Part shown: positions 34,400 through 60,721 of the stretch, piece after piece
How positions within the stretch are numbered: position 1 is the first letter of the stretch
How the letters are laid out: each line of letters begins with the position of its first letter
Made by a program: the position numbers and the translations under genes
Origin: Crossaster papposus
Taxonomy: Eukaryota > Echinodermata > Asteroidea > Velatida > Solasteridae
DNA length: 64,000 nt
Direction: 5' to 3'
Assembly: GCA_037893245.1 (NCBI GenBank)
Contig: JBAIAA010000313.1
Coordinates: 990,001-1,054,000 of the forward strand
The notes under the pieces: model-generated
What the model was told of the DNA's origin: nothing
Database searches by the model: none
What the model saw: the letters and a program-made list of their open reading frames with translations, nothing else

Positions 34400-35020
34400 C
34401 CTATGTATCATGAATCAGCACTGCCAGACACTTTTAGTGGTGGGGTACCCCTGCCAGACGTCGCCGAATGACCACACCCCAAAATTGACCCAGGTCAGCT
34501 CATGAGCTAACCAAATGAAACCAAGTGCAAAATGTTCAGTATGACCCTATGTATCATGAATCAGCACTGCCAGACACTTTTAGTGGTGGGGTACCCCCGC
34601 CAGACGTCCCCAAATGACCACACCCAAAAATTGACCCAGGTCAGCTCATGAGCTAACCAAATGAAACCAAGTGCTAAATGTTCAGTATGACCCTATGTAT
34701 CATGAATCAGCACTTCCAGACACTTTTAGTGGTGGGGTACCCCCGCCAGACGTCCCCAAATGACCACACCCCCAAATTGACCCAGGTCAGCTCATGAGCT
34801 AACCAAATAAAACCAAGTGCAAAATGTTCAGTATGACCCTATGTATTATGAATCAGCACTGCCAGACATTTTTAGCGGTGGGGTACCCCCACCAGACGTC
34901 CCCAAATGACCACACCCCAAAATTCACCCAGGTCAGCTGATAAGCTAACCAAATAAAACCAAGTGCAAAATGTTCAGTATGACCCTATGTATCATGAATC
35001 AGCACTGCCAGATATTTTTA
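34400..35020 (+). repeat. 146-bp tandem repeats, left arm
   Basis: GCCAGACGTC recurs near 34456, 34602, 34748 and 34894, a spacing of 146 bp. Each unit carries GACCCAGGTCAGCTCATGAG and CAGTATGACCCTATGTATCA. The last unit is interrupted by the LINE. Confidence 0.85.

Positions 35021-36326: not shown

Positions 36327-36356
<30 letters not shown>
35021..36356 (+). mobile_element. 5'-truncated L2/CR1-like LINE
   Basis: Inserted into the 146-bp array, with TTAGT on both sides (TTTTTAGT before, ATTATTAGT after) as a probable short target duplication. It begins inside the reverse transcriptase (STETALL in frame) and ends in AATGCGCTTTATAAATGCC followed by (ATT)n. The endonuclease and the N-terminal part of the reverse transcriptase are absent. 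Confidence 0.9.
35024..36225 (+). pseudogene. LINE reverse transcriptase, truncated and frameshifted
   Basis: The frame reads through STETALLCVQNHILN, then catalytic motif A (LLDLSTAFDTLDH), motif B (GVPQGSVIGP) and motif C (YADDIDI), followed by the thumb-like region. It breaks near 36070-36100. A one-base shift restores the family tail AFSVAGPRCWNSIPLNIR and FKRKLKSYLFSS, with a stop at 36223-36225. The catalytic aspartates are present, but the protein lacks its start and endonuclease, so it cannot move on its own. It belongs to the Jockey-superfamily side of LINEs (L2/CR1), judged from motifs. Confidence 0.9.
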
Positions 36357-36358
<2 letters not shown>

Positions 36359-36671
36359 GTGGTGGGGTACCCCCGCCAGACGTCCCCAAATGACCAGACC
36401 CCAAAATTGACCTAGATCAGCTCATGAGCTAACGATTTGAAACTGAGTGCAAAATGTTGAATTAAATTCGAACTAAATCAGCTCCATAGCTGATCCACTG
36501 AAATAATGTTTGGCACAACACATATGAATGTGAATTTTTATCACGAATAACCACTTTCACATATACATGTAATTCGTGAGCAGTTAAAAAACAGGCTTCA
36601 CATCAGTCTTCAGTTCTCATCTAGATATTATAATCCATCTCTTCCTCTTGATCTGAATCCGAGTCTTCACT

Positions 36672-37251
36672 CTATGGTTCGTCATCAGAGTCACTCAGCT
36701 CACCAAGTGCTTCCAAGCCACACTCTACTTCGCGACCGACGATAATTGTCTCATCGCTGTCACTGTCCACCTCTGCCAAGTCTGCAATTGTACTATTCGT
36801 GAACAAAGTGTCAGGTACTGCGGGCCCTTGGAACCAGTTTGGCTGCAGGAGGTTTCCATTTACCGACCAACCATATTCAGTTGGTGACAATCCATCCCCA
36901 GGAGTTGCTGTCGCTGCGTTGGTCCACAATATTGTGACGTACTGAGCTCGGCGAACCTTCATCTCAAGGGTCCGACGACAAGTTGGCAGCAGCGCACAGT
37001 CTACCCGTTTGACATTTGCCAATGGATTCTTCATTCTTGGTTGTTGTCCACGTCTTGTCGTGAAATGTTTTCAGTTTGCTGTCTTCTTCAGTTGCCTTCT
37101 CACAGATATAGCAGCTTACTTTTAGAGTTTCAGAGCTTTCAGAGCTATCGATAGTGATAGGTGAAGAATCTGATTCATGATGGGGTGGCTCTCCCAAATT
37201 GTCATCGTCTTGAATCATATGTGTGTCTTCCGAACCCTCGGCACCCTTGTC
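36672..37251 (-). pseudogene. cargo gene of the foldback-like element, frameshifted second exon
   Basis: The acceptor CCTTTTCAG precedes 37251. The frame opens with an acidic segment (DDDNLGEPPHHESDSSPITI) and CYICEKATEED, a possible zinc-binding cysteine pair. A frame change near 36964-37034 leads into ALLPTCRRTLEMKVRRAQY and DGLSPTEYGWSVNGN, ending in an acidic tail with a stop at 36672. The second half resembles, from memory, the C-terminus of uncharacterised proteins common in repeats of marine invertebrates (pattern LPPT...L..H..RA.YQ...W...P.P...GW). Function unknown. Confidence 0.5.
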
Positions 37252-37310
37252 CTGAAAAGGAAATAATAGATCTATGAGTGTTGATAACATAATGGTCCAA
37301 GGATCAATCA

Positions 37311-37520
37311 ATCAATCAATCAAGTCTTGTATAGCGCAAACTCCACCAATAAGGTGCTCTGTGCGCTTTGGCAGTTCTTGCAAAAAGTCAGAGATTCGCA
37401 CCAAAGAGATATCCCTTCAGTAGCCGTTTGAATGTAAGAATGTCCGGTGCCTGATGGATATTGGAAGTCCGTTCCAAAGTTACGGCACAGCAACACCAAA
37501 GGCTTCATTGTCATATAGCT
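37311..37520 (-). repeat. retroposon fragment with (GATT)n tail
   Basis: It ends (minus strand) in GCGCTATACAAGACTTGATT and a GATT array. Elsewhere it reads AAGGTGCTCTGTGCGC on the plus strand. The GCGCTATA tail resembles the LINE and SINE tails at 36300 and 46180. It lies in the cargo-gene intron. Confidence 0.5.
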
Positions 37521-37621
37521 TAAGTCTCAATGGTGGAACTACTAGGCATCGCTGCCAGTGGCTGGACATCTTCACTTCTTACTCGTCTCAGTAGTTGAAC
37601 AAAAAGTGTCAATGAGCTTAC

Positions 37622-37690
37622 CTTTTTATCGACGGTGATGGGTGAAGACTCCAATTCATGGGGTGGGTCTCCCAAATCTTCTGCATCCAT
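37622..37690 (-). CDS. cargo gene first exon, duplicate of the acidic segment
   Basis: ATG at 37688-37690. The 23 codons read MDAEDLGDPPHELESSPITV then DKK, with donor AAG|GTAAGC. It is clearly paralogous to NLGEPPHHESDSSPIT in the next exon, and its phase 0 matches the following acceptor. Confidence 0.5.
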
Positions 37691-37782
37691 TCTACAGCGT
37701 TCTGATGTCTAACCCATTAGCAAGAAGCTGAAAAAGAGAGTTTGGTATGGATGTGCAAGTGGTGTATTAATTTTTTTATTTG

Positions 37783-37798
37783 GGGGGGGGGGGGGGGG
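37783..37798. repeat. G homopolymer, about 16 bp
   Basis: G run inside the foldback-like element interior. Confidence 0.9.
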
Positions 37799-37799
37799 T

Positions 37800-38877
37800 G
37801 GCAGTGGGCCAAATGCCCCCAGACGTCCGCGAAAAACATGTTTTTCATATTGCAAGTTTTGGCAACAAAATGTCAAAAAGTGGTGTTTTGAATCCCCCCC
37901 ACCCCACCACCCCTGAACCAAATTCCTATAGTAGGCCTACCACGTCTCTGATAATAATGCAAAAACGCCTCCTTTTAAAGGACCAGTGCCTATGTATATC
38001 TTATGAAAATAAATTACCGGTAATTGGTTAATTATTGGCACTGGCAGCAAATTCACCCATTCAGAGAAATCAATCAAATGATCATGTCAATTTTACATAG
38101 CCCTATCGGCTATTACAGTGTATTACATCGTACATTTAGGCGGGAATAGTTATAAGCATAATTTATACAGTGGGCGGATCTCCAAAGGCATAAAAGGGCA
38201 AATCTATATTATTCACAATAAAATAATGAATAATAATACATGTAATCATGAATAGCACCCCCTACATTTGTTTACACATCACTAGTGTGTAAACAAGATA
38301 TGTCTTGGCCTAAATATGGTTTTTAAATATATTTTTTTACATGACATAGGCCTATACACTGGCCTTTTAAAATCAGAAACAAGATGCATCAGGCCTGTAT
38401 TCTGTGTAGGCCTTTTCATGTCGTAAATTACTGTGAAAGCATGGCAGAACCTCAACCCTTCAGAACAGTAAACAGTGCATCATCATCATCAAGAACACAC
38501 TGTTGAGTGGCTACTGTGCTATAATTTCCAACTAGAACAGTTTCCTTTTATAAAGTTTGATTCATGAACATTTCTATGAGATAATATGATTTTTAAGAAA
38601 CTTACCTCTCAAACTGATACTGCTGTACATTTTTGACATCTACTTTTGGCCAGTTGTGTGTAAATTGAAGAGAGAACTTGACTCAATACTGGCATGCCTG
38701 TATTACATGTAGCCTACACAAGATGTTGTGGTTATTACCACAGATCAGCTATATTGGTCAACATCTGTCTTACACTTGATTTATAACGGAGTTCCAAGTA
38801 AACCTTTCCGTCTCTTGCTATATATATTGGCAATTATGGGCCAATTGCAATATACAAAATAATTAGACTTAGATTTG
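37800..38877. other. foldback-like element interior, no gene recognised
   Basis: AT-rich sequence. I see no further exon of the cargo gene with confidence. Confidence 0.4.
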
Positions 38878-39600
38878 GGGTGTGGTCATTTGGGGACGTC
38901 TGGCAGGGGTACCCCACCACTAAAAATGTCTGGCAGTGCTGATTCATGATACATAGGGTCATACTGAACATTTTGCACTTGGTTTTATTTGGTTAGCTCA
39001 TGAGCTGACCTGGGTCAATTTGGGGGTGTGGTCATTTGGGGACGTCTGGCGGGGGTACCCCACCACTAAAAGTGTCTGGCAGTGCTGATTCATGATACAT
39101 AGGGTCATACTGAACATTTTGCACTTGGTTTCATTTGGTTAGCTCATGAGCTGACCTGGGTCAATTTTGGGGTGTGGTCATTTGGGGACGTCTGGCGGGG
39201 GTACCCCACCACTAAAAGTGTCTGGCAGTGCTGATTCATGATACATAGGGTCATACTGAACATTTTGCACTTGGTTTTATTTGGTTAGCTCATCAGCTGA
39301 CCTGGGTCAATTTTGGGGTGTGGTCATTCGGCGACGTCTGGCGGGGGTACCCCACCACTAAAAGTGTCTGGCAGTGCTGATTCATGATACATAGGGTCAT
39401 ACTGAACATTTTGCACTTGGTTTCATTTGGTTAGCTCATGAGCTGACCTGGGTCAATTTTGGGGTGTGGTCATTTGGGGACGTCTGGCGGGGGTACCCCA
39501 CCACTAAAAGTGTCTGGCAGTGCTGATTCATGATACATAGGGTCATACTGAACATTTTGCACTTGGTTTCATTTAGTTAGCTCATGAGCTGATCTAGCTC
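38878..39600 (-). repeat. 146-bp tandem repeats, right arm
   Basis: Same unit in inverted orientation, with GACGTCTGGC near 38896, 39042, 39187, 39333 and 39479. This arm holds one more unit outside the shared GGCGACGTC variant than the left arm. Confidence 0.85.
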
Positions 39601-39977
39601 AATTTTGGGGTACCAGTTAATTAAGTCTGGCGGACACACCCCACCATTGAAAATGTCTGTCAGTGGTCATTTATGATACATGGAGTTATGCTGAACATTT
39701 TGTCATGAGTTTTAAGCGGTTAGGTGGAGAGCTGATCTAGCTCAATTTTTGGGTGCCATTCTCCTGACCCTCTTGACCACACCCACCACAGTGTGCCCGG
39801 CAGACGTCAAATTTCATGAATGTAGGTGCATATGGAGCATAGTGATGTATATAAAAATTGGTTAGCTTTCCAGCTACCCTGACCCCCCCTGGCTCCTGCT
39901 CTAGGAGTAAGCGTCACTTCACACTTGCCAGCAGCAACGACCTGAGCACGTACAATTGAATGTGTTGTCTATAATTG

Positions 39978-43491: not shown

Positions 43492-43808
43492 CTACAGGTT
43501 GGCCGGCTCTAGCACTACGGTCAATGGGAAGTTATCTCCGGTGAGCTCAGTGCTCATCAGCGAGTTGGTCATCAGGGCCTCCGCCACGGGGCCCAGGTAC
43601 AGCACGCCCTCCGGAGTACGGCCGTAGACGGCGAGACGTAGTGGGATCCGGAAGCAACCCAGGTTTTTCTTAGCCAGGGTGTGGCCGAGGAACTTGGCTT
43701 CCAGGCGGCCGCAGCCGCTGATCTCTGCCGTAGTCACAGCCAAGTTGTAGAGGGCGATGCACACCTTCCCACCGGCCAGGGGCACGCAGATTGGGGGCGG
43801 GTTTTTCA
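43492..43808 (-). CDS. cassette 6, exon C, terminal exon
   Basis: Acceptor TGTCGATCAG, 317 nt, stop TAG at 43492-43494. Contains NPPPICVPLAGGKVCIALYN, SGCGRLEAKFLG and LGCFRIP. A C-terminal extension of about 50 residues (RTPEGVLYLGPVAEAL onward) is absent from other cassettes. It is more GC-rich than the other copies. Confidence 0.85.
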
Positions 43809-46800
43809 CTGATCGACAAAAGAAAGAAATTAAGCCAATTAAACAGTTCGCGTCGGAAATATCAGCGTGTGCAACCCACAATGCCGGCCTCGGTGAACCC
43901 GTCTCGCGAGGTTTGTGAAAAACAATACCGTGCCTGATGGGTCCGGTCAATGTAAATATAATCCTCCCGCGCGAACTGGTTAAGCATCTGCCACAGATAA
44001 ATATAATGAGGGTGGGGGTGTTCCCCGTGCAGACGCTGACATGGTGCATTGGGGCCTTATTAATAAATGCAATGGTGAAGTTACTAACTATATTTTGGAA
44101 TTGCTCTAGAATGTAGAAAAAACATAGTACATGGCATTCTAAAACCTCCAAGGGCAATTACGTCCCTGGTCCCCCGACTTTCCCTCCTCTTTATTCCCCC
44201 CCCCCCCCCCCCTCACCCCTACCCACCCGTATGACCCTTAGGTCTATAATTAGACTTTGTATCTATTAAACTTCACCCCAGGTTTCAATACCAATTTGAA
44301 ATCATCTATCGTTCGCGAATTCGCAAAAATGAACAAAATAATTTATATTCGTCAAATCAATAAACATTATACTGTAATCGACTTCAGTCAAGAATATTTG
44401 CAATTGTTTCTGTAAGGTGAGGCTTACTAATTTCTGAAAACAATTATTATGTCTATATGTTGATGTATTATTATGCAAGGGAATTGTGTAGCGCTGCTTT
44501 AAGTGAACCAAATGATACAGATAATGTCCGATGCTTGCTACCTTATATTGGTACACATGTTTTGATATACGTTTCTATACTTACGTGACACAGTCTTTTT
44601 GAAGATGACTTTCTTGTCGATGGTTAGGGTCAGAGACACGCCGATAGCGGTTGACAAGTACTGGACTGTGATGCAAACTGCAGGGCGCAAACGACGAGGG
44701 GAAAGGCAAAATACATACAAATCGTTGGTAAAACATCCACTGCGAAAAATGATCATCCTTAAAGCTTGAATGCATGAGCCAGGTTTAGGCGCATGTTGAC
44801 GTGGATGTTCGAATTGCTGGTTTTGGCTGTGACTTTGACCGTTGCTATGCTGTTGCTAAGGACGGACAATGACTGCCCATAGCAACAGTATAGCAACGGC
44901 CGAAGTCGCAGCCAAAGCCAGCAATTCAGACACGGCCTAAGACTCGAACCTGCAATCCACTAACCCGGAGTCATCAGATGCCCTATATTAAATTGAGCTA
45001 CGGCGCCAGTTACAGAGATGCGGCCTTTAGGAAGCACATAATAATAACCCTTTTATTGTTTGAAATGTGCTTGCGAACATCAAATTCAGCGATTTTTGTT
45101 TCGGCAGATAAACAGTTCGCCAAACACGAATGTAAAATAGCAGAAACAACGAAAATATCTTGTTTAATAAGAAATTTATGAACAATTGCAGAATGAGGAG
45201 TCAGTGTAAATGAACAAAAATAAATAAAAAACTCTCCCGACCGTTAGTCTGACTTATTGTGACGTGGGTTAAAAACAAAAGAACAACGACCATGCCAGGA
45301 CTCGAACCTTTAATCCTCCGATTCATAGTCGGATGCCTTAAATATCCCGGGCTACACAATACAGAAATACGACTATGGGCATATAAACGTAATTCAATCA
45401 ACATTTTCAGTTTAGAAATGTGCTTGCGAAACTTCAGAATCACCGATTTTGGTTTCGGCAGAAGAACAATTTTGCACGCATGCAAAATAGCAGGAACACC
45501 ACGACGAAAAGGTCTTGTTTTTAGGTACAGATAAAAATACAAATCGATAAACAATTGGAGGTTGCGGATTTTGTAGTATTTTTCTTCTTCTAGTATTAAG
45601 TGGCGTTGGGGTTGGTTTATCACTCACCTTGGCTATCGATCTTGAGTTTCTTAACTTTGATGTGTTGACAGCATTGGCATTGATCCTTAGAGCAATTACA
45701 CGCGCCATTCGAACCTTCACTTAGTTCCAGGTCCATCCACTCAGTCATGCCTTGAGATTCTAGTGAAGACTCTAATAACACAAAAAGGAAGACCTACAGA
45801 ATTGTATAACACATGGACTTCATCCGTCACATGAGAAGATGGCTCTGTCTTGTGGAGTGCTGTGGCCTCGTGGTCTGGACCATTGAATTTGTAATATGTG
45901 GGTAAAGCTACATGTTGTGGGTTCGAGTCCGGCCTGGGACTACGGTTCGTGTGCCCTTGGGCAAGGCACTTTGTCACTCATTGCTTCTCTCCACCCAGGA
46001 GTAAATGGGTACCTGTGAGGGCAGAGATGGTTATTGTGGTGGATTTAGCGGCTTTGCGCCGAAATGGCAGCATCGAGCTGTATACTCCCCAGGGAGCTGA
46101 GATGGTATTTAGAATGTTTCATAGGCCCAATGACCGGGGTAATAATGTTGAGCGCTTTGAGACGTTGGTGATAAAGCGCTATATGAGCACCGCACATTAC
46201 TATTACTAAGGACGGAAACATTTCACCACAGAGGATTCCTCTAAATAAGTCAACTCCTTTAAAATGGTTTCAATATTCATCCTGTCAAATAATGTAAACG
46301 AACAGTTTGTGTATATAATTCTGTTTCACTCACAAGCTCCGGGTATCAAGAGGGTGGGCTGGGGGTGGTGAAAGGGGGAGGGGGTTAAGTATATACTTTG
46401 TAATATTTTTTGTCTGGCAGTGAATTTCTATTATAACTGACATACAGATCCTTGTCATTTGATTGGTGGAGATCCAATCACGTGACATTCATTATTACTC
46501 CAATTCACGCCGCAGCTCAAAAAAGTACCCTTCGCCCACGGTGAATGGGATTTACTATTCAACAGTTAGGATCATCCTCGTTCCTACGGCTGTTGAACAG
46601 TCGACCCTCACTCCTAAACCCGGGGAAAAAGTTGGGACCCAATTTGTGCTCCTTACGTCACACAATCATGGCGGCCGGCGACGTAAACAGATGAGCCAAC
46701 GTTCGCGGATCTGTTTGCCAGTTTAAAAAACAAATATTGAGTGGCTTTAAACTGTGACATGGGATTAATATTATCGCTCGGTAAAATCTGGACTTTTCCA

Positions 46801-49800
46801 TTTTCACGAGGCGAACCCGCGATAATATTCCTCCTATCCAATCTGAGCCACTCAATATTGTATTCAATGTTGGGAATAAGCAGTTGTGGTTCTGTTGCGG
46901 TGGCGAGTTGGGTGGCGAGTGGACCGCCGAGGCAAGTATGTTTTGGTGAGTGGGGTGGCGAGTAGGGTGGCGATTGGAGTGGCCAGTGGGGTGGCGAGTG
47001 GGGTGGCCAGTGGGGTGGCGAGTGGGCCGCCGAGGCAAGTATGTTTTGGTGAGTGGGGTGGCGAGTAGGGTGGCGATTGGATGGCGAGTGAGGTGGCGAG
47101 TGAGGTGGCGAGTGAGGTGGCGAGTGGGGTGGCGAGTGTGGTATCGAGTGGGTGGCGAATAGACTGCCGAAGTAAGTATGTTTTGGTGAAATAAAAAGCT
47201 TTTCCTTTTTTTTGCTTGAAAAGAATTGGAGGACAAGGACCCGATTAGTTCACGTTTCAGTAGTCTCACTTGATCTTCCTATTTCACACTACATCTTGCG
47301 CAGAGTAGTAAGAAAGGCAGTACTTTTGCTTTCGGATGTTTGGATGTATCCTCCTGACAGTTTCACTCAGAGAATTTTTTTAAAGTTTGTCCTTGGTAAT
47401 TTAACTCTTTTTTAGGGGGGGGGGAGCACTTGTAGTTTTCTATTAATTATAGGTTTAATCAAAGTCATCTGGAAAAAGTATCAAGCTCAACTCTAGAATC
47501 TTGTAATCTAATCAAATTGTTGATCGAACAATACGCAACGTGATCCTCTCGCGGTATGAAATAGTGCACTTAATTCCTTGTTTCAAAGTGCTATCTGAGT
47601 TTAGTTTTAGTTTCACGCAACTGATAAACAGCATAATCGACTTATCCTCAAATTTAACAAAAAAGAAAGTTGCCTTCCAAGCTTCAGTGAAACAAAACGT
47701 GACTTCACTTTGACTTTGTGCCCTATACCGAACAGGACAAGATAAGACAAAAACACTGTTTACAAGATTTAGTGGTAATCACATAATTAAATAATACATG
47801 GATCGGTTAAACATGTTAAGTTTGGACTTGATATTAAGCAAGACGGATTACAGTCTAATTATTGGCTAAAATGACTTAACAAATGTCAATAAATTAAGTA
47901 CTCTGGGAGTTAAGTAGGAATGATTTCAGTTTACACTTGAACGTATCAAATGTACATTTTTTAAATAAAATACAAAAAAAAAGTTATCACCTTGATTGTT
48001 CTTTTTCAAGGGCATCTTGAAGCAGCCCAAGTCTACCGAAGCCATTGTCTTGCTCAGAAGTTTGCCTTCCAATTTGGCGCATCCCTGGAAGTATTCCGGT
48101 GATACTGACAACTTGTACAACTCGGCACAGATCTCCGCGCCAATCTCAGTTCCGGAGAATTTCACGCAGACTGGATCGGGATTTATAACTGCGACAAAAA
48201 CATATTTAAAAGTAGTGCATACGACATTTTTGCAAGCTTGAACAACCCGAAACTATACTCGACTTTATTCGAATATCGACTGAAGAATATAATCAAGCAT
48301 CATGTAAAATCGTGGCACCTGATGTGCTGTAATTTTAAAGAAAAGTTAACTTTTGTATCAATTCCCAACTGTTTTCTTTCTTTTTTCAAAAACTTTCCCC
48401 CACTCCATCAAATTGAGTTTCTCCCAGTGCAAGGATACACATGATAATTACCCGACGTACTGATTATCACTGAATGCTCCGTTCCGTCTAAAGCCGGGTC
48501 AGGGAACCATGCTACAAGAACATTTGTTTTCCTCTGGGGTTTTTTTCCCCAGCATCTATGAACCGAAAATCTTCTAACAGAAGAATGAAGCAATATTTTT
48601 TCTATAAAAAACTAATTCCCTAATCCAGCTATTTTTGAAATGTACAACCAAAGCTGTATACTACAAATCTTTCTGGTATATTACAACACGTCAAGCAACA
48701 ACACGACACAACACGACACAACACGACACAACACAAAACGACACAACACGACACAACACGACACAACACGACACAACACGACACAACACGACACAACACG
48801 ACACAACACGACAACCTTATCAATGTGGACCTTACTGGATGGGGTTGTACGTTTTGGCTATTGTTTTCATTTCGGTCTATTCCTACCCAATTTGTAAGAG
48901 TTGAATCCGTTGGCTGGTTAATTTGTATTCTTAGCGGTTCTTTCCTCGCCTTCCACCACTATGACCCGGGTTCGAATCTGGCCTTGGCCAATAAAGGATT
49001 GGGTTTTCAGTCCCTGTCTGACCCTGTAGGGTTTCCCTAGGATATTCTTCTGGTGTTTTTCCCCTACGTCTAAAACTGTACCTTCTTCTCATTGTCTTCT
49101 CTCTCTACGGGTTTCTGCAGGCTTACGAGCTACAGTGACGAGGACACTTTTTATAGATCCTTGGTTTCATTACCAGAAATAAATAATTTAAAAAAATAAA
49201 AAAATCTTACTCGACACAGTTTTCTCGGAGATAACTTTTCCATCGAAGGTGATGAACAACTTGGCGCCGATTTGCTCAGAAATGAAAGTCACGTTGACAC
49301 AAGCTGCAGTCAGTAAAACAGGGTGGAATTGTTTTGTGAATGAACAATTTCAAAAGACCAAAATCCAATCTAAACTGTAGGAACGACACGGAGTTTAATC
49401 AAAAAAGCCATTTGAGTTTGCACTTGAGTCATTTCAATCATATCCAATAATGTTTCACTCTAAAACGTGTGGTTCTTAACATTTTAGTTGGTGAAAGAGC
49501 AGATATTCGCTCCTTTTAAAAAAAAATAAAAGTAAAGCAACAAATACCAATTCTAGGTTTATTTTGTTTTTACGATGGCAGGTTTAATTTTGTTCCCTTT
49601 AAGATCAATAAAAACAGTTGGTTGAAGTCCGACTTTCTAAACGACACCATGTGCGCAATATTAATTCACAATTGTACATACCTTGTCTTCTAACTCAATG
49701 AAGATGTTTCGGGATATCTTAACAAATATCTGTCGTGAGTATGGTGGCGTATACCTTTTGAGTTGATTTTAAGGGCGGAAATCTTGACGGGCTGACAGCA

Positions 49801-52800
49801 TCCGCAATCTTTGCCTTTGCACGAACAGGGCGAAGCAGCCACCGACGGCCGGCCTTCTGAAAGCTCCGTCCATGCCACATCGTCACTTTGAACTTGGTCT
49901 GTAAGGTCAGGTAGATTAGTGTAAACACTGCTCATTCTTAATTACATTGAATAATACATGTACATTAAAAACAAGTGTGGAGACATCATCCTAAAATTCT
50001 AAAGCTTGTGGTGGATGTGCCCTACAGAACAGGACAAGATAAGACAAAAACCACTGATTACAAGATTTAGTGGTGATCACATAATTAAATAATACATGGA
50101 TCGGTTAAACATGTTAAATTTGGACTTGATATTAAGCAAGACGGATTACACTCTTATAAAATGACTTAACAAATGACAGTAAATTAAGTACTCTTGGAGT
50201 TAAGTAGGAATGATTTCAGTTTACACTTGAACGTATTAAATGTACATTTTTATATGAAATACAAAAAAAAAAGTTATCACCTTGATTGTTCTTTTTCAAG
50301 GGCATCTTGAAGCAGCCCAAGTCTACCGAAGCCACTGTCTTGCCCAGAAGTTTGCCTTCCACTTTGGCGCATCCCTCGAAGTCTTCCGGCGATACTGACA
50401 ACTTGTACAACTCGGCGCAGATCTTCGCGCCAATCTTTCCGGGGAATTTCACGCAGACTGGATCGGGATTTTTAACTGTGACAAAAACATATTTAAAAAG
50501 TAGTGCATACGACATTTTGCAAGCATGAACAACCTGAAACTATACTCGACTTTATTCGAATATTTACTCGACTGAATAATATAATCTAGCATCCTGTGAA
50601 ATCGTGGCACCTGATGTGCTGTCATTTTAAAGAAAAGTTAACTTTTGTTCCCCACTCCATCAAATTGAGTTAGTCCCATTGCAAGGGTACACATGATAAT
50701 TACCCGACGAACTGATTATCACTGATTGCTCCGTTCCGTCTAAAGTAGGTTCAGGGAACCAATGCTACAAGAACATTTGTTTTCCTCTGTTTTTTTCCTC
50801 AGCATCTATGAATCCAAAAACCTTCTAACAGAAGAATGAAGCAATATTTTCTATAAAATACTAATCCCCTAATCCAGTTGTTTTTGAAATTTACAACCAC
50901 AGCTGTATACTACAAATCTCTCTTACAGTATCTTACAACACAAGCTACAAAACACAACACAACACGACACGACACGACACGACACAACATCACAGCACAG
51001 CACAGCACAGCACAGCACAGCACAGCACAGCACAGCACAGCACAGCACAGCACAGCACAGCACAGCACAACACAACACAACACAACACAACACAACACAA
51101 CACAACACAACACAACACAACACAACACAACACAACACAACACAACACAACACAACACAACACAACACAACACAACACAACACAACACAACACAACACAA
51201 CACAACACAACACAACACAACACGACAACCTTATCAATGTGGACCTTACTGGATGGGGTTGTACGTTTTGGCTATTGTTTTCAGTTCGGTCTATTCCTAC
51301 CCAATTTGTAAGAGTTGAATCCGTTGGCTCGTTAATTTGTATTCTTAGCGGTTCTTTCCTCGCCTTCCACCACTATGACCAGGGTTCGAATCTGGCCTGG
51401 GCCAATATGGATTGGGTTTTCAGTCCCTGCCTGACCCTGTAGGATTTCCCCAGGATATTCTTCTGGTGTTTTTCCCCTACGTCCAAAACTGTACCTTCTT
51501 CTCATTGTCTTCTCTTCACAGGTTTCTTCAAGCTTACGAGCTACAGTGACGAGGGCACTTTTGATAGATCCTTTGTTTAATTTAAAAAAATTAAACAAAT
51601 CTTACCCGACACAGTTTTCGCGAAGAGAACTTTTCCATCGAAGGTGAGGGACAACTTGGCGCCGATTTGCTCAGAAAGGAAAGTCACGTTGGCACAAGCT
51701 GCAGTCAATAAAACAGGGTGGAATTATTTGTTTAATACACTGTTTACACTTGAGTCATTTCAATCAAATCCAATAAAGTTTCCCATAAAAAACGTGTGGT
51801 TCTTAACATTTTAGTTGGTGAAAGAGCAGATATTCGCTTCTTTTTTAATAAAAGTAAAGCAACAAATACCAATTCTAGATTTATTTTGTTTTTACGATGG
51901 CAAGTTTGATTTTTTTCCTTTAAGATCAATAAAAACAGTTGGTTGAAGTCCGACTTTCTAAACGACACCATATGCGCAATATTAATTCACAAGTACAAAC
52001 CTTGTCTTCTAACTCAATGAAGATGTTTCGGGATACCTTAAAGGGATCGTATACGTTTGGTAATTGGAACCCACTGTTTGTTTCAATCATATATACTTAT
52101 AGATATATACCATAAAACTAACCTGTACAAATTTCATTTTAAAAGGTGGTAGCGATTTTGAGATATTGCCGAAAATCTGGAGCGGTTATGTCCACGCAGG
52201 AAGAATAATCTGCATTGGAATACACAATCTGAGAAACGTCACTGCAGTAATGCTTCTCAGATTTAAATATTTGAGGATAAAAAGTGATATCTTTTTCCAT
52301 AACCGCAGTACTTCGAAGTGAAAAGTTTCTTTAAAAAATGCATTATACTATCCAAAGCTGCTGTACTTCTTACCAAGTAAGTTTTTATTGCCATTAATTG
52401 TTGGAGTAATTACCAAACGTATACGATTCCTTTAACAAATATCTGTCGTGAGTATGGTGGCGTATACCTTTTGAGTTGATTCCAAGGGCAGAAATCTTAA
52501 CGGGCTGACAGCATCCGCAATCTTTGCCTTTGCACGAACAGGGCGAAGCAGCCACCGACGACCGGCCTTCTAAAAGCTCCGTCCATGCCACATCGTCACT
52601 TTGAACTTGGTCTGTAAGGTCAGGTAGATTAGTGTAAACACTGCTCATTCTTAATTACATTGAATAATACATGTACATTAAAAACAAGTGTGGAGGCATC
52701 ATCCTAAAAATCTAAAGCTTGTGGCGGATGTGCCCCACAGAACAGGACAAGATAAGACAAAAACCACTGATTACAAGATTTAGTGGTGATCACATAATTA

Positions 52801-55800
52801 AATAATACATGGATCGGTTAAACATGTTAAATTTGGACTTGATATTAAGCAAGACGGATTACACTCTTATAAAATGACTTAACAAATGACAGTAAATTAA
52901 GTACTCTTGGAGTTAAGTAGGAATGATTTCAGTTTACACTTGAACGTATTAAATGTACATTTTTATATGAAATACAAAAAACAAAGTTATCACCTTGATT
53001 GTTCTTTTTCAAGGGCATCTTGAAGCAGCCCAAGTCTACCGAAGCCATTGTCTTGCCCAGAAGTTTGCCTTCCACTTTGGCGCATCCCTCGAAGTCTTCC
53101 GGCGATACTGACAACTTGTACAACTCGGCGCAGATCTTCGCGCCAATCTTTCCGGGGAATTTCACGCAGACTGGATCGGGATTTTTAACTGTGACAAAAA
53201 CATATTTAAAAAGTAGTGCATACGACATTTTGCAAGCATGAACAACCTGAAACTATACTCGACTTTATTCGAATATTTACTCGACTGAATAATATAATCT
53301 AGCATCCTGTGAAATCGTGCAGCACCTGGTGTGCTGTCATTTTAAAGAAAAGTTAACTTTTGTTCCCCACTCCATCAAATTGAGTTAGTCCCATTGCAAG
53401 GGTACACATGATAATTACCCGACGAACTGATTATCACTGATTGCTCCGTTCCGTCTAAAGTAGGTTCAGGGAACCAATGCTACAAGAACATTTGTTTTCC
53501 TCTGTTTTTTTCCTCAGCATCTATGAATCCAAAAACCTTCTAACAGAAGAATGAAGCAATATTTTCTATAAAATACTAATCCCCTAATCCAGTTGTTTTT
53601 GAAATTTACAACCACAGCTGTATACTACAAATCTCTCTTACAGTATCTTACAACACAAGCTACAAAACACAACACAACACGACACGACACGACACGACAC
53701 AACATCACAGCACAGCACAGCACAGCACAGCACAGCACAACACAACACAACACAACACAACACAACACAACACAACACAACACAACACAACACAACACAA
53801 CACAACACAACACAACACAACACAACACAACACAACACAACACAACACAACACAACACAACACAACACAACACAACACAACACAACACAACACAACACAA
53901 CACAACACAACACGACAACCTTATCAATGTGGACCTTACTGGATGGGGTTGTACGTTTTGGCTATTGTTTTCAGTTCGGTCTATTCCTACCCAATTTGTA
54001 AGAGTTGAATCCGTTGGCTCGTTAATTTGTATTCTTAGCGGTTCTTTCCTCGCCTTCCACCACTATGACCAGGGTTCGAATCTGGCCTGGGCCAATATGG
54101 ATTGGGTTTTCAGTCCCTGCCTGACCCTGTAGGATTTCCCCAGGATATTCTTCTGGTGTTTTTCCCCTACGTCCAAAACTGTACCTTCTTCTCATTGTCT
54201 TCTCTTCACAGGTTTCTTCAAGCTTACGAGCTACAGTGACGAGGGCACTTTTGATAGATCCTTTGTTTAATTAAAAAAAATTAAACAAATCTTACCCGAC
54301 ACAGTTTTCGCGAAGAGAACTTTTCCATCGAAGGTGAGGGACAACTTGGCGCCGATTTGCTCAGAAAGGAAAGTCACGTTGGCACAAGCTGCAGTCAATA
54401 AAACAGGGTGGAATTATTTGTTTAATACACTGTTTACACTTGAGTCATTTCAATCAAATCCAATAAAGTTTCCCTCAAAAAACGTGTGGTTCTTAACATT
54501 GTAGTTGGTGAAAGAGCAGATATTCGCTTCTTTTTTAATAAAAGTAAAGCAACAAATACCAATTCTAGATTTATTTTGTTTTTACGATGGCAAGTTTGAT
54601 TTTTTTCCTTTAAGATCAATAAAAACAGTTGGTTGAAGTCCGACTTTCTAAACGACACCATATGCGCAATATTAATTCACAAGTACAAACCTTGTCTTCT
54701 AACTCAATGAAGATGTTTCGGGATACCTTAAAGGGATCGTATACGTTTGGTAATTGGAACCCACTGTTTGTTTCAATCATATATACTTATAGATATATAC
54801 CATAAAACTAACCTGTACAAATTTCATTTTAAAAGGTGGTAGCGATTTTGAGATATTGCCGAAAATCTGGAGTGGTTATGTCCACGCAGGAAGAATAATC
54901 TGCATTGGAATACACAATCTGAGAAACGTCACTGCAGTAATGCTTCTCAGATTTAAATATTTGAGGATAAAAAGTGATATCTTTTTCCATAACCGCAGTA
55001 CTTCGAAGTGAAAAGTTTCTTTAAAAAATGCATTATACTATCCAAAGCTGCTGTACTTCTTACCAAGTAAGTTTTTATTGCCATTAATTGTTGGAGTAAT
55101 TACCAAACGTATACGATTCCTTTAACAAATATCTGTCGTGAGTATGGTGGCGTATACCTTTTGAGTTGATTCCAAGGGCAGAAATCTTAACGGGCTGACA
55201 GCATCCGCAATCTTTGCCTTTGCACGAACAGGGCGAAGCAGCCACCGACGACCGGCCTTCTAAAAGCTCCGTCCATGCCACATCGTCACTTTGAACTTGG
55301 TCTGTAAGGTCAGGTAGATTAGTGTAAACACTGCTCATTCTTAATTACATTGAATAATACATGTACATTAAAAACAAGTGTGGAGGCATCATCCTAAAAA
55401 TCTAAAGCTTGTGGCGGATGTGCCCCACAGAACAGGACAAGATAAGACAAAAACCACTGATTACAAGATTTAGTGGTGATCACATAATTAAATAATACAT
55501 GGATCGGTTAAACATGTTAAATTTGGACTTGATATTAAGCAAGACGGATTACACTCTTATAAAATGACTTAACAAATGACAGTAAATTAAGTACTCTTGG
55601 AGTTAAGTAGGAATGATTTCAGTTTACACTTGAACGTATTAAATGTACATTTTTATATGAAAAACAAAGTTATCACCTTGATTGTTCTTTTTCAAGGGCA
55701 TCTTGAAGCAGCCCAAGTCTACCGAAGCCACTGTCTTGCCCAGAAGTTTGCCTTCCACTTTGGCGCATCCCTCGAAGTCTTCCGGCGATACTGACAACTT

Positions 55801-58800
55801 GTACAACTCGGCGCAGATCTTCGCGCCAATCTTTCCGGGGAATTTCACGCAGACTGGATCGGGATTTTTAACTGTGACAAAAACATATTTAAAAGTAGTG
55901 CATACGCCATTTTGCAAGCATGAACAACCCGAAACTATACTCGACTTTATTCGAATATTTTACTCGACTGAAGAATATAATCTAGCATCCTGTGAAATCG
56001 TGGCATCTGGTGTGCTGTCATTTTAAAGAAAAGTTAACTTTTGTTCCCCACTCTATCAAATTGAGTTAGTCCCATTGCAAGGGTACACATGATAATTACC
56101 CGACGTACTGATTATCACTGATTGCTCCGTTCCGTCTAAAGTAGGTTCAGGGAACCAATGCTACAAGAACATTTGTTTTCCTCTGTTTTTTTCCTAAGCA
56201 TCTATGAATCCCAAAACCTTCTAACAGAAGAATGAAGCAATATTTTCTATAAAATACTAATCCCCTAATCAAGTTGTTTTTGAAATTTACAACCACAGCT
56301 GTATACTTTAATCTCTCTTACAGTATCTTACATCAAAACACAACACAACACAACACGACACGACACGACACAACAACCTTATCAATGTGGACCTTACTGG
56401 ATGGGGCTGCACGTTTTCAGTTCAGTCTATTCCTACCAAATTTGTAAGAGTTGAATCCGTTGGCTCGTTAATTTGTATTCTTAGCGGTTCTTTCCTCGCC
56501 TTCCACCACTATGACCCGGGTTCGAATCTGGCCTGGGCCAATAATGGATTGGGTTTTCAGTCTTTTTTCCCCAGTTTTTCCCAGGATAGTCTTCTGGGGT
56601 TATTCTCCTACGTCTAAAATTGTACCTTCTTCTCATTGTCTTCTCTTCACAGGTTTCTTCAAGCTTACGAGCTACAGTGACGAGGGCACTTTTGATAGAT
56701 CCTTTGTTTAATTTTAAAAAAAATTAAAAAAATCTTACCCGACACAGTTTTCTCGAAGATAACTTTTCCATCGAAGGTGAGGGACAACTTGGCGCCGATT
56801 TGCTCAGAAAGGAAAGTCACGTTGGCACAAGCTGCAGTCAATAAAACAGGGTGGAATTGTTTTGTGAATACACTGTTTACACTTGAGTCATTTCAATCAA
56901 ATCCAATACATTTTTCCTCCAAAACGTGTGGTTCTTAACATTTTAGTTGGTGAAAGAGCAGATATTCGCTTCTTTTTTAATAAAAGTAAAGCAACAAATA
57001 CCAATTTTAGATTTATTTTGTTTTTACGATGGCAGGTTTGATTTCTTCCCCTTAAGATAAATAAAAACAGTTGGTTGAAGTCCGACTTTCTATACGACAC
57101 CATGTGCGCAATATTAATTCACAATTGTACAAACCTTGTCTTCTAACTCAATGAAGATGTTTCGGGATACCTTAAAGGGATCGTATACGTTTGGTAATTG
57201 TAACCCACTGTTTGTTTCAATCCTATATACTTATAGATATATACCATAAAACTAACCTGTACAAATTTCATTTTAAAAGGTGGCAGCGATTTTGAGATAT
57301 TGCCGAAAATCTGGAGCGGTTATGTCCACGCAGGAAGAATAATCTGCATTGGAATACACAATCTGAGAAACGTCACTGCAGTAATGCTTCTCAGATTTAA
57401 ATATTTGAGGATAAAAAGTGATATCTTTTTTCATAACCGCAGTACTTCGAAGTGAAAAGTTTCTAAAAATGCAGTATACTATCCAAAGCTGCTGTACTTC
57501 TTACCAAGTATAGTTTTTATTGCCATAAATTGTTGGAGTAATTACTAAACGTATACGATCCCTTTAACAAATATCTGTGGTGAGTATGGTGGCGTATACC
57601 TTTTGAGTTGATTCCAAGGGCGGAAATCTTGACGGGCTGACAGCATCCGCAATCTTTGCCTTTGCACGAACAGGGCGAAGCAGCCACCGACGACCGGCCT
57701 TCTAAAAGCTCCGTCCACGTCACATCGTCACTTTGAACTTGGTCTGTAAGGTCAGGTAGATTAATTGTAAACACTGCTCATTCTTAATTACAATGAATAA
57801 TACATGTACATTAAAAACAAGTGTGGAGGCATCGTCCTAAAACGCTAAAGCTTGTGGCGGATGTGCCCTGCAGAACAGGACAAGATAAGACAAAAACCAC
57901 TGATTACAGGATTTAGTGGTGATCACATAATTAAATAATACATGGATCGGTTAAACATGTTAAATTTGGACTTGATATTAAGCAAGACGGATTACACTCT
58001 TATAAAATGACTTAACAAATGACAGTAAATTAAGTACTCTTGGAGTTAAGTAGGAATGATTTCAGTTTACACTTGAACGTATTAAATGTACATTTTTATA
58101 TGAAATACAAAAAAAGAGTTATCACCTTGATTGTTCTTTTTCAAGGGCATCTTGAAGCAGCCCAAGTCTACCGAAGCCACTGTCTTGCCCAGAAGTTGGC
58201 CTTCCACTTTGGCGCATCCCTCGAAGTCTTCCGGCGATACTGACAACTTGTACAACTCGGCGCAGATCTTCGCGCCAATCTTTCCGGGGAATTTCACGCA
58301 GACTGGATCGGGATTTTTAACTGTGACAAAAACATATTTAAAAGTAGTGCATACGCCATTTTGCAAGCATGAACAACCCGAAACTATACTCGACTTTATT
58401 CGAATATTTTACTCGACTGAAGAATATAATCTAGCATCCTGTGAAATCGTGGCACCTGATGTGCTGTCATTTTAAAAAGTTAATTTTTGTATCAATTCCC
58501 AACGATGTTGTTTGTTTTGTTCAAAAACTTTTCCCCATTCCATCTAATTGAGTTAGTCCCATTGCAAGGGTACACATGATAATTACCCGACGTACTGATT
58601 ATCACTGATTGCTCCGTTTCGTCTAAAGTCGGTTCAGGGAACCATGCTACAAGAACATTTGTTTTCCTCTGGGTTTTTTCCCCCAGCATCTATGAACCCG
58701 AAATCTTGTAACAGAAGAATGAAGCAATATTTTTTATAAAATACTAATCCCCTAATCCAGCTATTTTTGAAATTTACAACCAAAGCTGTATACTACAAAT

Positions 58801-60721
58801 CTCTCTTACAGTATCTTACAACACATGCAACACATCAAAACACAACACGACACAACACGACACAACACGACACAACACGACACAACAAAACACAACACGA
58901 CACAACACAACACAACACAACACAACACAACCCGACGCAACACAGCACAACACGACACGACACGACACGACACGACACAACACAGCACGACACAACACAG
59001 CACGACACAACACGACAACCTTACCAATGTGGACCTTACTGGATGGGGTTGCACGTTTTGGCTATTGTTTTCAGTTCGGTCTATTTATACCCAATTTGTA
59101 AGAGTTGAATCGGTTGGCTTGTTATTTTGTATTCTTAGCGGTTCTTTCCTCGCCTTCCATCACTATGACCAGGGGCCAATTTAATAGAGCTGCTAAGCAC
59201 AACAATTTGCTTAGCATGACAATTTGTCCTTGGCAAAAACAAGGTTACAGACCAAATTTTCACCTGATCTTTATTGATCTGGATTGATAATCAGCTGTTT
59301 GTTTGCCTAGCTTGAAAAACACGTATAATTTTGGCTGGTAACCTGTTTCTAATGAGCAAGACCTTTTGGTGCTAAGCAAATTGTTTTGCTTAGCAGCTCT
59401 ATGAAATTGGCCCCTGGGTTCGAATCTGGCCTGGGCCAATAATGGATTGGGTTTTCAGTCCCTGCCTGACTCTGTATGGTTTTTCCCGGGATATTCTTCT
59501 GGGGTTTTTCTCCTACGTCTAAAACTATACCTTCTTCTCATTGTCTTCTCTCTACAGGTTTCTTCAGGCTTACGAGCTACAGTGATGAGGCCACTTTTGA
59601 TAGATCCTTGATTAAATTTTTGTTTAATTAAAAAGAATCTTACCCGACACAGTTTTCTCGAAGAGAACTTTTCCATCGAAGGTGAGGGACAACTTGGCGC
59701 CGATTTGCTCAGAAAGGAAAGTCACGTTGGCACAAGCTGCAGTCAATAAAACAGGGTGGAATTGTTTTGTGAATGAACAATTTCAAAAGACCCAAATCTA
59801 ATCTAAACTATAGGAACGACACGGAGTTTAATCCAAAGAGCCAATTGAGTTTGCACTTGAGTCATTTCAATCAAATCCAATAAAGTTTCCCTCTAAAACG
59901 TGTGGTTCTTAACATTTTAGTTGGTGAAAGAGCAGATATTCGCTTCTTTTTTAATAAAAGTAAAGCAACAAATACCAATTTTAGATTTATTTTGTTTTTA
60001 CGATGGCAGGTTTGATTTCTTCCCCTTAAGATAAATAAAAACAGTTGGTTGAAGTCCGACTTTCTAAACGACACCATGTGCGCAGTATTAATTCACAATT
60101 GTACAAACCTTGTCTTCTAACTCAATGAAGATGTTTCGGGATACCTTAAAGGGATCGTATACGTTTGGTAATTGTAACCCACTGTTTGTTTCAATCCTAT
60201 ATACTTATAGATATATACCATAAAACTAACCTGTACAAATTTCATTTTAAAAGGTGGTAGCGATTTTGAGATATTGCCGAAAATCTGGAGCGGTTATGTC
60301 CACGCAGGAAGAATAATCTGCATTGGAATACACAATCTGAGAAACGTCACTGCAGTAATGCTTCTCAGATTTAAATATTTGAGGATAACAAGTGATATCT
60401 TTTTTCACAACCGCAGTACCTTGAAGTGAAAAGTTTCTTTTAAAAAATGCATTATACTATCCAAAGCTGCTGTACTTCTTACCAAGTATAGTTTTTATTG
60501 CCATAAATTGTTGGAGTAATTACTAAACGTATACGATCCCTTTAACAAATATCTGTGGTGAGTATGGTGGCGTATACCTTTTGAGTTGATTCCAAGAGCG
60601 GAAATCTTGACGGGCTGACAGCATCCGCAATCTTTGCCTTTGCACGAACAGGGCGAAGCAGCCACCGACTGCCGGCCTCCTGAAAGCTCCGTCCAAGCTA
60701 CATCGTCACTTTGAACTTGGT
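43492..60721 (-). CDS. multidomain gene of six tandem DUF4773-like cassettes (5' end not found)
   Basis: Eighteen minus-strand exons join in one frame (2,705 nt, about 900 residues) with a single stop at 43492-43494. The order repeats six times: exon A (cysteine cluster C-x-C-x4-C-x-C-C), exon B (CANVTFLSEQIGAKLSLTF type), exon C (NPDPVCV, CAELY, GCAK, LGCFKM). Every complete exon starts and ends in phase 1, with GT-AG borders. A typical cassette has ten cysteines, suggesting disulfides and secretion. From memory the pattern (CxCC cluster, IGVSLTLTI..KVIF.KTVS, NPPPICV, LGCF) matches the Pfam family DUF4773, known as single-domain secreted proteins of unknown function in insects and others. 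Five separate genes plus one is less likely: exons C1-C5 end in donors, not stops. The first exon with a signal peptide is not recognisable in 60,760-64,000. Confidence 0.8.
43839..43983. mobile_element. TTAA-flanked MITE, family CCAGTTCGCGCC, copy 3
   Basis: TTAAACAGTTCGCG and CGCGCGAACTGGTTAA are the ends. It lies in the last intron of the DUF4773-like gene, ending about 30 bp before the terminal exon, so it borders the branch-point region. Confidence 0.75.
44196..44212. repeat. C homopolymer, about 17 bp
   Basis: C run in the intron between cassette 6 exons B and C. Confidence 0.9.
44585..44677 (-). CDS. cassette 6, exon B
   Basis: Acceptor CCCTGCAG, donor TCAC|GTAAGT, 93 nt, phase 1-1. 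Reads CITVQYLSTAIGVSLTLTI then DKKVIFKKTVS, the copy closest to the family pattern I remember. Confidence 0.8.
44795..44938. repeat. palindromic repeat
   Basis: GTTCGAATTGCTGGTTTTGG...ACCGTTGCTATGCTGTTGC is mirrored by GCAACAGTATAGCAACGG...GCCAAAGCCAGCAATTC. A small inverted-repeat element in the intron between cassette 6 exons A and B. Confidence 0.75.
44938..45560 (-). repeat. two copies of a tRNA-like repeat
   Basis: Units at about 44938-45200 and 45258-45560 each hold a minus-strand tRNA-like B-box (GGTTCGAGTC) and a shared block (GAAATGTGCTTGCGAA, TTTCGGCAGA, AAAATAGCAG) on the plus strand. The cloverleaf is degenerate, so these are retroposon copies rather than tRNA genes. Confidence 0.55.
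45628..45759 (-). CDS. cassette 6, exon A
   Basis: Acceptor GTCTTCACTAG, donor CCAAG|GTGAGT, 132 nt, phase 1-1. The diverged reading is TEWMDLELSEG then CNCSKDQCQCCQHIKVKKLK. The cysteine spacing is identical to the other cassettes. Confidence 0.8.
45860..46208 (+). mobile_element. tRNA-derived SINE with LINE-like tail
   Basis: Its head contains the RNA polymerase III B-box GGGTTCGAGTCC and the body TGCCCTTGGGCAAGGCACTT and GTAAATGGGTACCTG, familiar from SINEs of marine animals. The tail AGCGCTTTGAGAC...AAAGCGCTATATGAGCACC and ATTACTATTA resembles the LINE tail at 36288-36356. Confidence 0.85.
46733..46862. repeat. short inverted-repeat element
   Basis: AATATTGAGTGGCT and AGCCACTCAATATT bracket about 100 bp in the intron between cassettes 5 and 6. 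Confidence 0.6.
46892..47165 (+). repeat. minisatellite GTGGGGTGGCGA with higher-order unit
   Basis: The basic 12-bp unit GTGGGGTGGCGA is repeated with variants. A longer block CGCCGAGGCAAGTATGTTTT plus GGTGAGTGG recurs three times (about 46920, 47030, 47165). Long frames on both strands here are repeat artefacts. Confidence 0.85.
47991..48188 (-). CDS. cassette 5, exon C
   Basis: 198 nt, one codon longer than in cassettes 1-4 (KFSGTEIGAEIC), phase 1-1, with the same four cysteines. Confidence 0.8.
48700..48812 (+). repeat. (ACACAACACG)n array, cassette 5
   Basis: Ten-base unit, about ten copies, in the intron between exons B and C of cassette 5. It is the same position as the pentanucleotide arrays of the other cassettes. 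Confidence 0.9.
49211..49303 (-). CDS. cassette 5, exon B
   Basis: 93 nt, phase 1-1, donor TCGA|GTAAGA. The diverged reading is CVNVTFISEQIGAKLFITF then DGKVISEKTVS. Confidence 0.8.
49755..49898 (-). CDS. cassette 5, exon A
   Basis: 144 nt, phase 1-1, TELSEGRPSVAAS and ISALKINSK. No MITE follows its donor, unlike cassettes 1-4. Confidence 0.8.
50281..50475 (-). CDS. cassette 4, exon C
   Basis: 195 nt, phase 1-1, NPDPVCVKFPGKIGAKIC through LGCFKM. Confidence 0.8.
50944..51225 (+). repeat. (CACAG)n(CACAA)n array, cassette 4
   Basis: About 16 CACAG units followed by about 31 CACAA units. The Cys/Val/Leu frames on the minus strand are artefacts. Confidence 0.95.
51606..51698 (-). CDS. cassette 4, exon B
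   Basis: 93 nt, phase 1-1, CANVTFLSEQIGAKLSLTF. Confidence 0.8.
52038..52435. mobile_element. TTAA MITE AGGGATCGTATACG in cassette 4
   Basis: Ends TTAAAGGGATCGTATACGTT and AACGTATACGATTCCTTTAA. It lies 32 bp inside the intron from the exon A donor. The same site in cassette 5 is empty (TCTTAACAAATATC at 49717-49730). Confidence 0.9.
52468..52611 (-). CDS. cassette 4, exon A
   Basis: 144 nt, phase 1-1. Same protein as cassette 3 exon A. Confidence 0.8.
52994..53188 (-). CDS. cassette 3, exon C
   Basis: 195 nt, phase 1-1. It carries TMAS where cassettes 1, 2 and 4 have TVAS. Confidence 0.8.
53662..53915 (+). repeat. (CACAG)n(CACAA)n array, cassette 3
   Basis: About six CACAG and about 35 CACAA units. 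The same flanks as cassette 4, but a different block ratio. Confidence 0.95.
54296..54388 (-). CDS. cassette 3, exon B
   Basis: 93 nt, phase 1-1, DGKVLFAKTVS ending. Matches cassette 4 exon B. Confidence 0.8.
54728..55125. mobile_element. TTAA MITE AGGGATCGTATACG in cassette 3
   Basis: Same site and near-identical sequence as in cassette 4, including the ATTCC variant in the right end. Confidence 0.9.
55158..55301 (-). CDS. cassette 3, exon A
   Basis: 144 nt, phase 1-1. Identical in protein to cassette 4 exon A (TELLEGRSSVAAS, then CSCKGKDCGCC). Confidence 0.8.
55677..55871 (-). CDS. cassette 2, exon C
   Basis: 195 nt, phase 1-1, four cysteines, NPDPVCV through LGCFKM. It keeps the TVAS form. 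Confidence 0.8.
56335..56372 (+). repeat. short (CACAA/CACGA)n array, cassette 2
   Basis: Only about eight units, with flanks shared with cassettes 3 and 4. Confidence 0.9.
56440..56735 (+). repeat. SINE-like unit in the B-C introns (representative copy)
   Basis: CACTATGACCCGGGTTCGAA contains a B-box-like core, followed by TCTGGCCTGGGCCAATAATG. Equivalent copies lie at 48900-49195, 51320-51600, 54010-54290 and 59110-59640 (split by a MITE). It was duplicated with the cassettes. Confidence 0.5.
56739..56831 (-). CDS. cassette 2, exon B
   Basis: 93 nt, phase 1-1, CANVTFLSEQIGAKLSLTF then DGKVIFEKTVS. Donor TCGG|GTAAGA. Confidence 0.8.
57164..57567. mobile_element. TTAA MITE AGGGATCGTATACG in cassette 2
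   Basis: Same site. The right end keeps GATCCC, and TTACTAAACG replaces TTACCAAACG, a variant shared with cassette 1. Confidence 0.9.
57600..57743 (-). CDS. cassette 2, exon A
   Basis: Same borders and length as cassette 1 exon A. It reads DDVTW where the others have DDVAW. The upstream in-frame ATG seen before other A exons is put out of frame here by an indel, supporting intron status for that sequence. Confidence 0.8.
58126..58320 (-). CDS. cassette 1, exon C
   Basis: Acceptor TTTGTCACAG, donor CAAG|GTGATA, 195 nt, phase 1-1. Encodes VKNPDPVCVKFPGKIGAKIC ... GCAKVEGQLLGK ... VDLGCFKMPLKKNNQ. The Q in GQLL is unique to this copy. Confidence 0.8.
58840..59018 (+). repeat. mixed CACGA/CACAA/CACAG array, cassette 1
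   Basis: Interspersed pentamers without clear blocks, in the intron between exons B and C of cassette 1. Confidence 0.9.
59174..59412. mobile_element. MITE GGCCAATTTCATAGAGCTGC unique to cassette 1
   Basis: It interrupts a sequence intact in cassettes 2-5 (ATGACC[C/A]GGGTTCGAATC). CCAGG precedes and CCTGG follows the element, a probable 5-bp target duplication with one mismatch. Confidence 0.85.
59644..59736 (-). CDS. cassette 1, exon B
   Basis: Acceptor GACTGCAG, donor TCGG|GTAAGA, 93 nt, phase 1-1. Encodes CANVTFLSEQIGAKLSLTF then DGKVLFEKTVS, a predicted beta-strand pair with one cysteine. Confidence 0.8.
60146..60545. mobile_element. TTAA MITE AGGGATCGTATACG in cassette 1
   Basis: Same site, sharing the TTACTAAACG variant with cassette 2. 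Confidence 0.9.
60578..60721 (-). CDS. cassette 1, exon A
   Basis: Acceptor CCTGACCTTACAG, donor AAAAG|GTATAC, 144 nt, phase 1-1. Encodes acidic VQSDDVAWTELSGGRQS then CSCKGKDCGCCQPVKISAL. This is the most 5' exon I can support. Confidence 0.8.

Follow-up and report, generated by a model that had tools for sequence, protein, structure and literature searches.

The DUF4773 family (PF15998) comprises secreted proteins. It is rarely named in the literature searched, where neither PF15998 nor its presumed InterPro number was found. The reports that name it place it among the most abundant upregulated transcripts of the locust pleuropodia, a secreting organ (PMC6966819), among proteins listed as reduced in a comparison of octopus skin mucus (PMC11431876) and, in oyster haemocytes, as a marker of a cluster identified as macrophage-like (PMC12064177). 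Tandem DUF4773 arrays receive no mention in those portions of the three reports that deal with the domain, and the accessible portions of the literature on domain copy number in sea stars hold nothing on the gene described here.

Variable numbers of tandem domains are documented in proteins built from other modules. Alleles of DMBT1 (salivary agglutinin) encode 7-21 SRCR domains, and bacterial binding by the form with 8 SRCR domains is reported to be 30-40% lower than that of the form with 13 (PMC9038570); DMBT1 copy number is reported to have no effect on Crohn's disease (PMC4851238). In LPA, which encodes apolipoprotein(a), kringle IV type 2 is a large intragenic coding repeat that gives rise to many protein lengths (PMC6314250). 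The locus of interest here resembles DMBT1 in encoding a predicted secreted protein with tandem cysteine-rich domains that differ in number between copies (between alleles in the case of DMBT1), but its domain is unrelated to SRCR, and its second copy, on contig C84, may be an allele or a paralog. With LPA it shares the large intragenic repeat of coding units; the domain is again unrelated, and the unit measures ~2.3-3.0 kb as compared with 5.6 kb in LPA (PMC6314250).

Architecture and domain identity of the array

Positions refer to the window, i.e. the whole stretch of 64,000 nt that was analysed (C313:990,001-1,054,000), unless preceded by the contig prefix C313 or C84. On the minus strand, from 60721 to 43492, 18 exons form six repeats of a three-exon module. 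All were identified by exon pattern and by Pfam, the C exons also by the PF15998 search of the assembly, and exon A of module 1 also by its invariant cysteines:

60578..60721, minus strand: module 1 exon A (cysteine-rich, CxC..CxCC)
59644..59736, minus strand: module 1 exon B
58126..58320, minus strand: module 1 exon C
57600..57743, minus strand: module 2 exon A
56739..56831, minus strand: module 2 exon B
55677..55871, minus strand: module 2 exon C
55158..55301, minus strand: module 3 exon A
54296..54388, minus strand: module 3 exon B
52994..53188, minus strand: module 3 exon C
52468..52611, minus strand: module 4 exon A
51606..51698, minus strand: module 4 exon B
50281..50475, minus strand: module 4 exon C
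49755..49898, minus strand: module 5 exon A
49211..49303, minus strand: module 5 exon B
47991..48188, minus strand: module 5 exon C (longer by one codon; among modules 1-5, module 5 has changed most)
45628..45771, minus strand: module 6 exon A (of the terminal module, which is of a different type)
44585..44677, minus strand: module 6 exon B
43492..43808, minus strand: module 6 exon C, which includes the C-terminal tail and the stop codon

Exons A and B measure 144 and 93 nt, and exon C 195 nt (198 nt in module 5), with the terminal C exon reaching 317 nt. Every junction is in phase 1 and all 17 internal exons are symmetric (1-1), so that the repeat unit is frame-neutral and carries whole domains; since each domain corresponds to one phase-1 three-exon cassette, any whole number of cassettes preserves the reading frame. 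The joined translation runs for 905 residues in an unbroken frame, its sole stop lying at the end of the terminal C exon. The six tandem three-exon cassettes, encoding at least 900 residues, that the first-pass annotation had proposed are thus borne out with all of their 18 exons in place. Exon ends were located by patterns requiring AG before and GT after the exon, and the splice dinucleotides are therefore not independent evidence; the recovery under these patterns of 17/17 internal exons in a single phase throughout does provide independent support. The array repeats far beyond chance, and the repeat search returned families with four or five copies, 300 nt long or shorter, at a spacing of ~2.3-3.0 kb. 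Ten cysteines are invariant in 6/6 modules. Identity to exon C of module 1 is 84-98% in modules 2-5 and 44% in module 6, the latter being, to judge from such comparison, an older and different type of module.

The family name given by the first-pass annotation proved correct: in a profile search of the joined translation, Pfam DUF4773 matches each of the six modules with 93.2-98.9 bits (curated cut-off 27) over nearly the whole profile, i.e. positions 1-114 of 118 (2-114 in module 6), and the joined protein as a whole scores 521 bits in six stretches. An RRM_occluded match fell below its cut-off (28 bits, cut-off 30) and was rejected as spurious. Searches beyond Pfam were negative within their scope, with no match of module 1 to solved structures by sequence, no NCBIfam family matching modules 1 and 6 (the two of six that were queried) and no Rfam family matching the window. 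Likewise, two short patterns drawn from all six modules matched 85 stretches of bacterial and archaeal genome contigs and two exon C patterns matched 41 stretches of viral contigs, with none confirmed in either case, and 0/14 control genomes were matched by the PF15998 profile.

The first-pass annotation had taken 43492..60721 to be the gene. This holds for its exons but probably not for its start, which seems to lie upstream, past the window edge. When the 33 kb upstream of exon A of module 1 were scanned for an ATG followed by a hydrophobic stretch and a phase-1 donor, 11 candidates emerged. The one with the best hydropathy is a 100-nt exon, C313:1056118-1056019, whose donor GTAAGT is in phase 1; it lies ~5.3 kb upstream of exon A and outside the window. 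This is a likely signal-peptide exon, judged by hydropathy only, and it is conserved, with a 9-bp in-frame insertion, in the copy on C84. If it is spliced to the first exon A, the full product would be a secreted protein with a predicted length of 938 residues, signal-peptide exon included, although further exons may lie in the 5.3-kb gap.

Exon C alone, aligned across its six rows from the window, was modelled as four antiparallel strands, the best model having a mean pLDDT of 84.4 and the other four 40.6-61.7; exon C is, however, only half a domain. Compared with the PDB, this model gave 1074 listed matches (E up to 10), none of them at E <=0.001. The thioesterase-type matches (from E 0.26) were set aside as commonplace for a small strand meander.

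A two-module copy on a second contig

A PF15998 search of the whole assembly (1.02 Gb, 1841 contigs) yielded 28 candidates and 11 matches, of which six fall on C313 and two on C84, with C307, C1257 and C656 contributing a single match apiece. At the other loci, one C exon each (C307, C1257 and C656) or two modules (C84) were found, as compared with the six tandem modules of the window. The C1257 and C656 loci are 89-94% identical in 8/9 blocks of at least 150 bases and 82% identical in the ninth.

On C84 there is an open gene of the same kind, made of one module of the type of modules 1-5 (N-type) and one terminal module, with a product of 364 residues including the predicted signal peptide, so that the count of six domains is not fixed within this assembly. 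Read in reverse, the contig matches the window and its flanks collinearly on both sides of the gene: comparison of C84:205200-274500 (69.3 kb) with C313 at ~990.0-1072.4 kb gave a chain of 49.6 kb (the best chain of blocks of at least 300 bases) with a mean identity of 94.6%, gaps counted, which extends to both ends of the compared stretch without reaching an end of the collinearity. The best long flanking block is 97.3% identical. A further block pairs C84:131-140k with C313:1139-1148k at the expected distance (65.6 kb onward on C84, 67.0 kb on C313), a piece that is also present elsewhere on C84. Four probes from C84, three of 1.5 kb at 60k, 500k and 900k and one of 9.9 kb at 700k, lie in dispersed repeats and are uninformative on collinearity. 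A several-kilobase piece of C84:100001-109900 has relatives at C84:62933-69684 and 131370-139631 and, among the scored matches, one place on C313; the searches with the 100k and 700k probes missed their own place, so that an absent match there means little.

Six modules on C313 and two on C84 are found on collinear contigs whether these represent alleles or paralogs. The explanation that we hold to be reasonably likely is that of a secreted protein with six DUF4773 domains, the cassettes of which are gained and lost by unequal recombination, in the manner of DMBT1 or LPA, with a domain number differing between haplotypes or duplicates. In such a scheme, one gene would give rise, through a single transcript, to a signal peptide and six DUF4773 domains (~938 residues); unequal recombination between near-identical introns would multiply and remove cassettes; and, as a consequence, domain number would come to differ between haplotypes or recent duplicates.

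As to what C84 is, haplotigs retained in an assembly frequently have the appearance of such a collinear copy, and we lean towards an alternative haplotype, i.e. an allele. The main competing view, less probable in our judgement but a serious one, is that of a recent large segmental duplication, with paralogous two- and six-domain genes. Indeed, three Rpb2-type genes, besides a bacterial one, are each found on a single contig (14 matches from 18 candidates), which indicates a mostly haploid assembly in which C84 may represent a duplicated paralog instead of a second allele, and C1257 and C656 offer a second similar pair of DUF4773 loci. On the other hand, a duplication has to be reconciled with collinearity across all of the 69.3 kb compared, with no end in sight and 94.6% mean identity over 49.6 kb, and with the additional block at the expected distance. 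In the same assembly, contig C8 (5.3 Mb) carries full-length uninterrupted matches to COX1 and Rpb2_6 and is probably a bacterial chromosome, from a symbiont or a contaminant; the mitochondrial contig presents a tRNA cluster and cox1 (Pfam), followed by trnR, frames read as nad4L and cox2, and trnK. The cluster precedes cox1, and this gene order suggests an echinoderm and, in view of where the cluster stands, probably a sea star.

The two copies also appear to differ in their mobile elements. The B-C intron of the C84 gene contains an insertion of ~2.5 kb (C84:228844-231351), two parts of which are 97.5-97.6% identical to positions 35023-36355 of the window; it is probably a recently mobile retroelement. 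In the window, a reverse-transcriptase frame (RVT_1, 35022-36107) is enclosed by arrays of a 146-bp tandem repeat, one at 34186-35022 and the other at 38874-39702. By eye, their consensus units resemble reverse complements of one another, and the whole (34186-39702) reads as a foldback-like element. It seems to be absent from C84, since the chain has no block between 33837 and 40236. Elsewhere in the window, at 28232-29644, lies a 13-bp satellite of ~109 copies (GTTGGGGTCGGGT) with a strong strand skew.

Divergence, constraint and probable joint transcription of the modules

Across the whole unit, modules 3 and 4 show 11 differences in 2276 aligned sites (0.5%), and the other nine pairs among modules 1-5 are 3.5-7.7% apart (3.5% for modules 2 and 3, 4.6% for modules 1 and 2, and 6.7-7.7% for module 5 against the other N-type modules), a pattern that suggests repeated duplication. 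The N module of C84 is closest to module 2 (2.8%). The ranking shifts along the unit: modules 2 and 3, for example, are 0.3% apart in the C-to-A intron and 3.5% apart in the A-to-B intron. Such a mosaic would be expected where units exchange unequally or undergo conversion. One flank upstream of exon A is common to module 1 and the C84 gene and another to modules 2-5, which marks the duplication junction. Module 5 is farther from its sister modules than C84 is from C313 in the best flanking block (97.3%), so that, if rates were even, the array would be older than the separation of the two copies, with a later loss of modules on C84; this dating is weak, because all chained blocks together average only 94.6%, gaps counted. 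Each of modules 1-5 carries in its B-C intron an ACAAC-type microsatellite (48698-48813, 50935-51227, 53650-53917, 56337-56375 and 58828-59017), which varies greatly in length and is possibly a site of recombination.

The near-identity of modules 3 and 4, with just those 11 differences, and the presence of a shorter copy on C84 could also be taken to mean that the array is partly an artefact of assembly, with one module assembled twice as modules 3 and 4 or two haplotypes joined head to tail. This is improbable: the ACAAC repeat differs in length between modules 3 and 4, and modules 1, 2, 5 and the 3/4 pair are distinct, being 3.5-7.7% apart and having introns of different lengths, so that at least four N-type modules and the terminal one would remain even in the case of an artefact.

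With respect to selection, a comparison of module 6 with its C84 counterpart gives 8 changes in 135 synonymous sites and 2 in 417 nonsynonymous sites, counts that indicate purifying selection. Between the C84 N module and modules 1-4 there are 2-5 synonymous changes in ~98 sites and 4-5 nonsynonymous changes in ~334, and between it and module 5 there are 3 synonymous and 19 nonsynonymous changes; the codon changes private to module 5 are 15 nonsynonymous and 1 synonymous. Module 5 may be under weak constraint, the numbers fitting relaxed as well as diversifying selection. Both sets of module 5 counts would also suit a functionless, decaying expansion in modules 1-5, in which nothing beyond the terminal module and possibly one more would matter. 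We regard such decay as unlikely in view of the frame, splice sites and ten cysteines retained in 6/6 modules, and of the counts between the C84 N module and modules 1-4.

Modules 1-4 are each followed by an intron of 375-382 bp that links exon C to the next exon A, and module 5 by one of 2219 bp. No A(A/T)TAAA motif and no signal-peptide-like exon is present in the four short introns, which makes separate transcripts unlikely, and we infer that all 18 exons are spliced into a single transcript. Together with the upstream signal-peptide-like exon, these short introns make the single secreted polydomain gene of the first-pass annotation the best reading of the locus. That the cassettes are instead separate tandem single-domain genes, each with a transcript of its own, is very improbable, although DUF4773 seems to be single-domain elsewhere in the assembly (C307, exons joined by eye, 64 bits; one C exon found at each of C1257 and C656), given that modules 1-5 lie so close together, that the 2219-bp intron before module 6 has one poly(A)-type signal but no signal-peptide-like exon, and that the joined frame is closed by one stop only.

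Possible multivalency and the meaning of domain number

The domain family is a known one; the feature that would be added here is a module number differing between two collinear copies in one assembly. The first-pass annotation had suggested a new architecture and a structural, adhesive or defence role, which stand as candidate readings. The secretory and immune settings in which the literature places DUF4773, combined with the tandem architecture, lead us to propose, with less assurance than for the gene model, that each domain may be a disulfide-stabilised, strand-rich binding unit, and that several in a row may bind a repetitive surface (glycans of microbes, mucus or matrix) with greater avidity. 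A multivalent binding role of the repeated domains is thus a more tentative suggestion, made by analogy with SRCR domain number in DMBT1. Going further, the protein might be a variable, secreted, multivalent recognition protein and an echinoderm counterpart to the DMBT1-type agglutinins, with alleles of at least two and of six domains generated by unequal recombination and perhaps kept by balancing selection; we consider this extended analogy doubtful.

The three animals in which DUF4773 has been placed in a secretory or immune setting are very unlike one another, yet the literature searched says little of the domain. A six-domain gene and its two-domain counterpart form a natural dose series from which the action of the domain may be learned.
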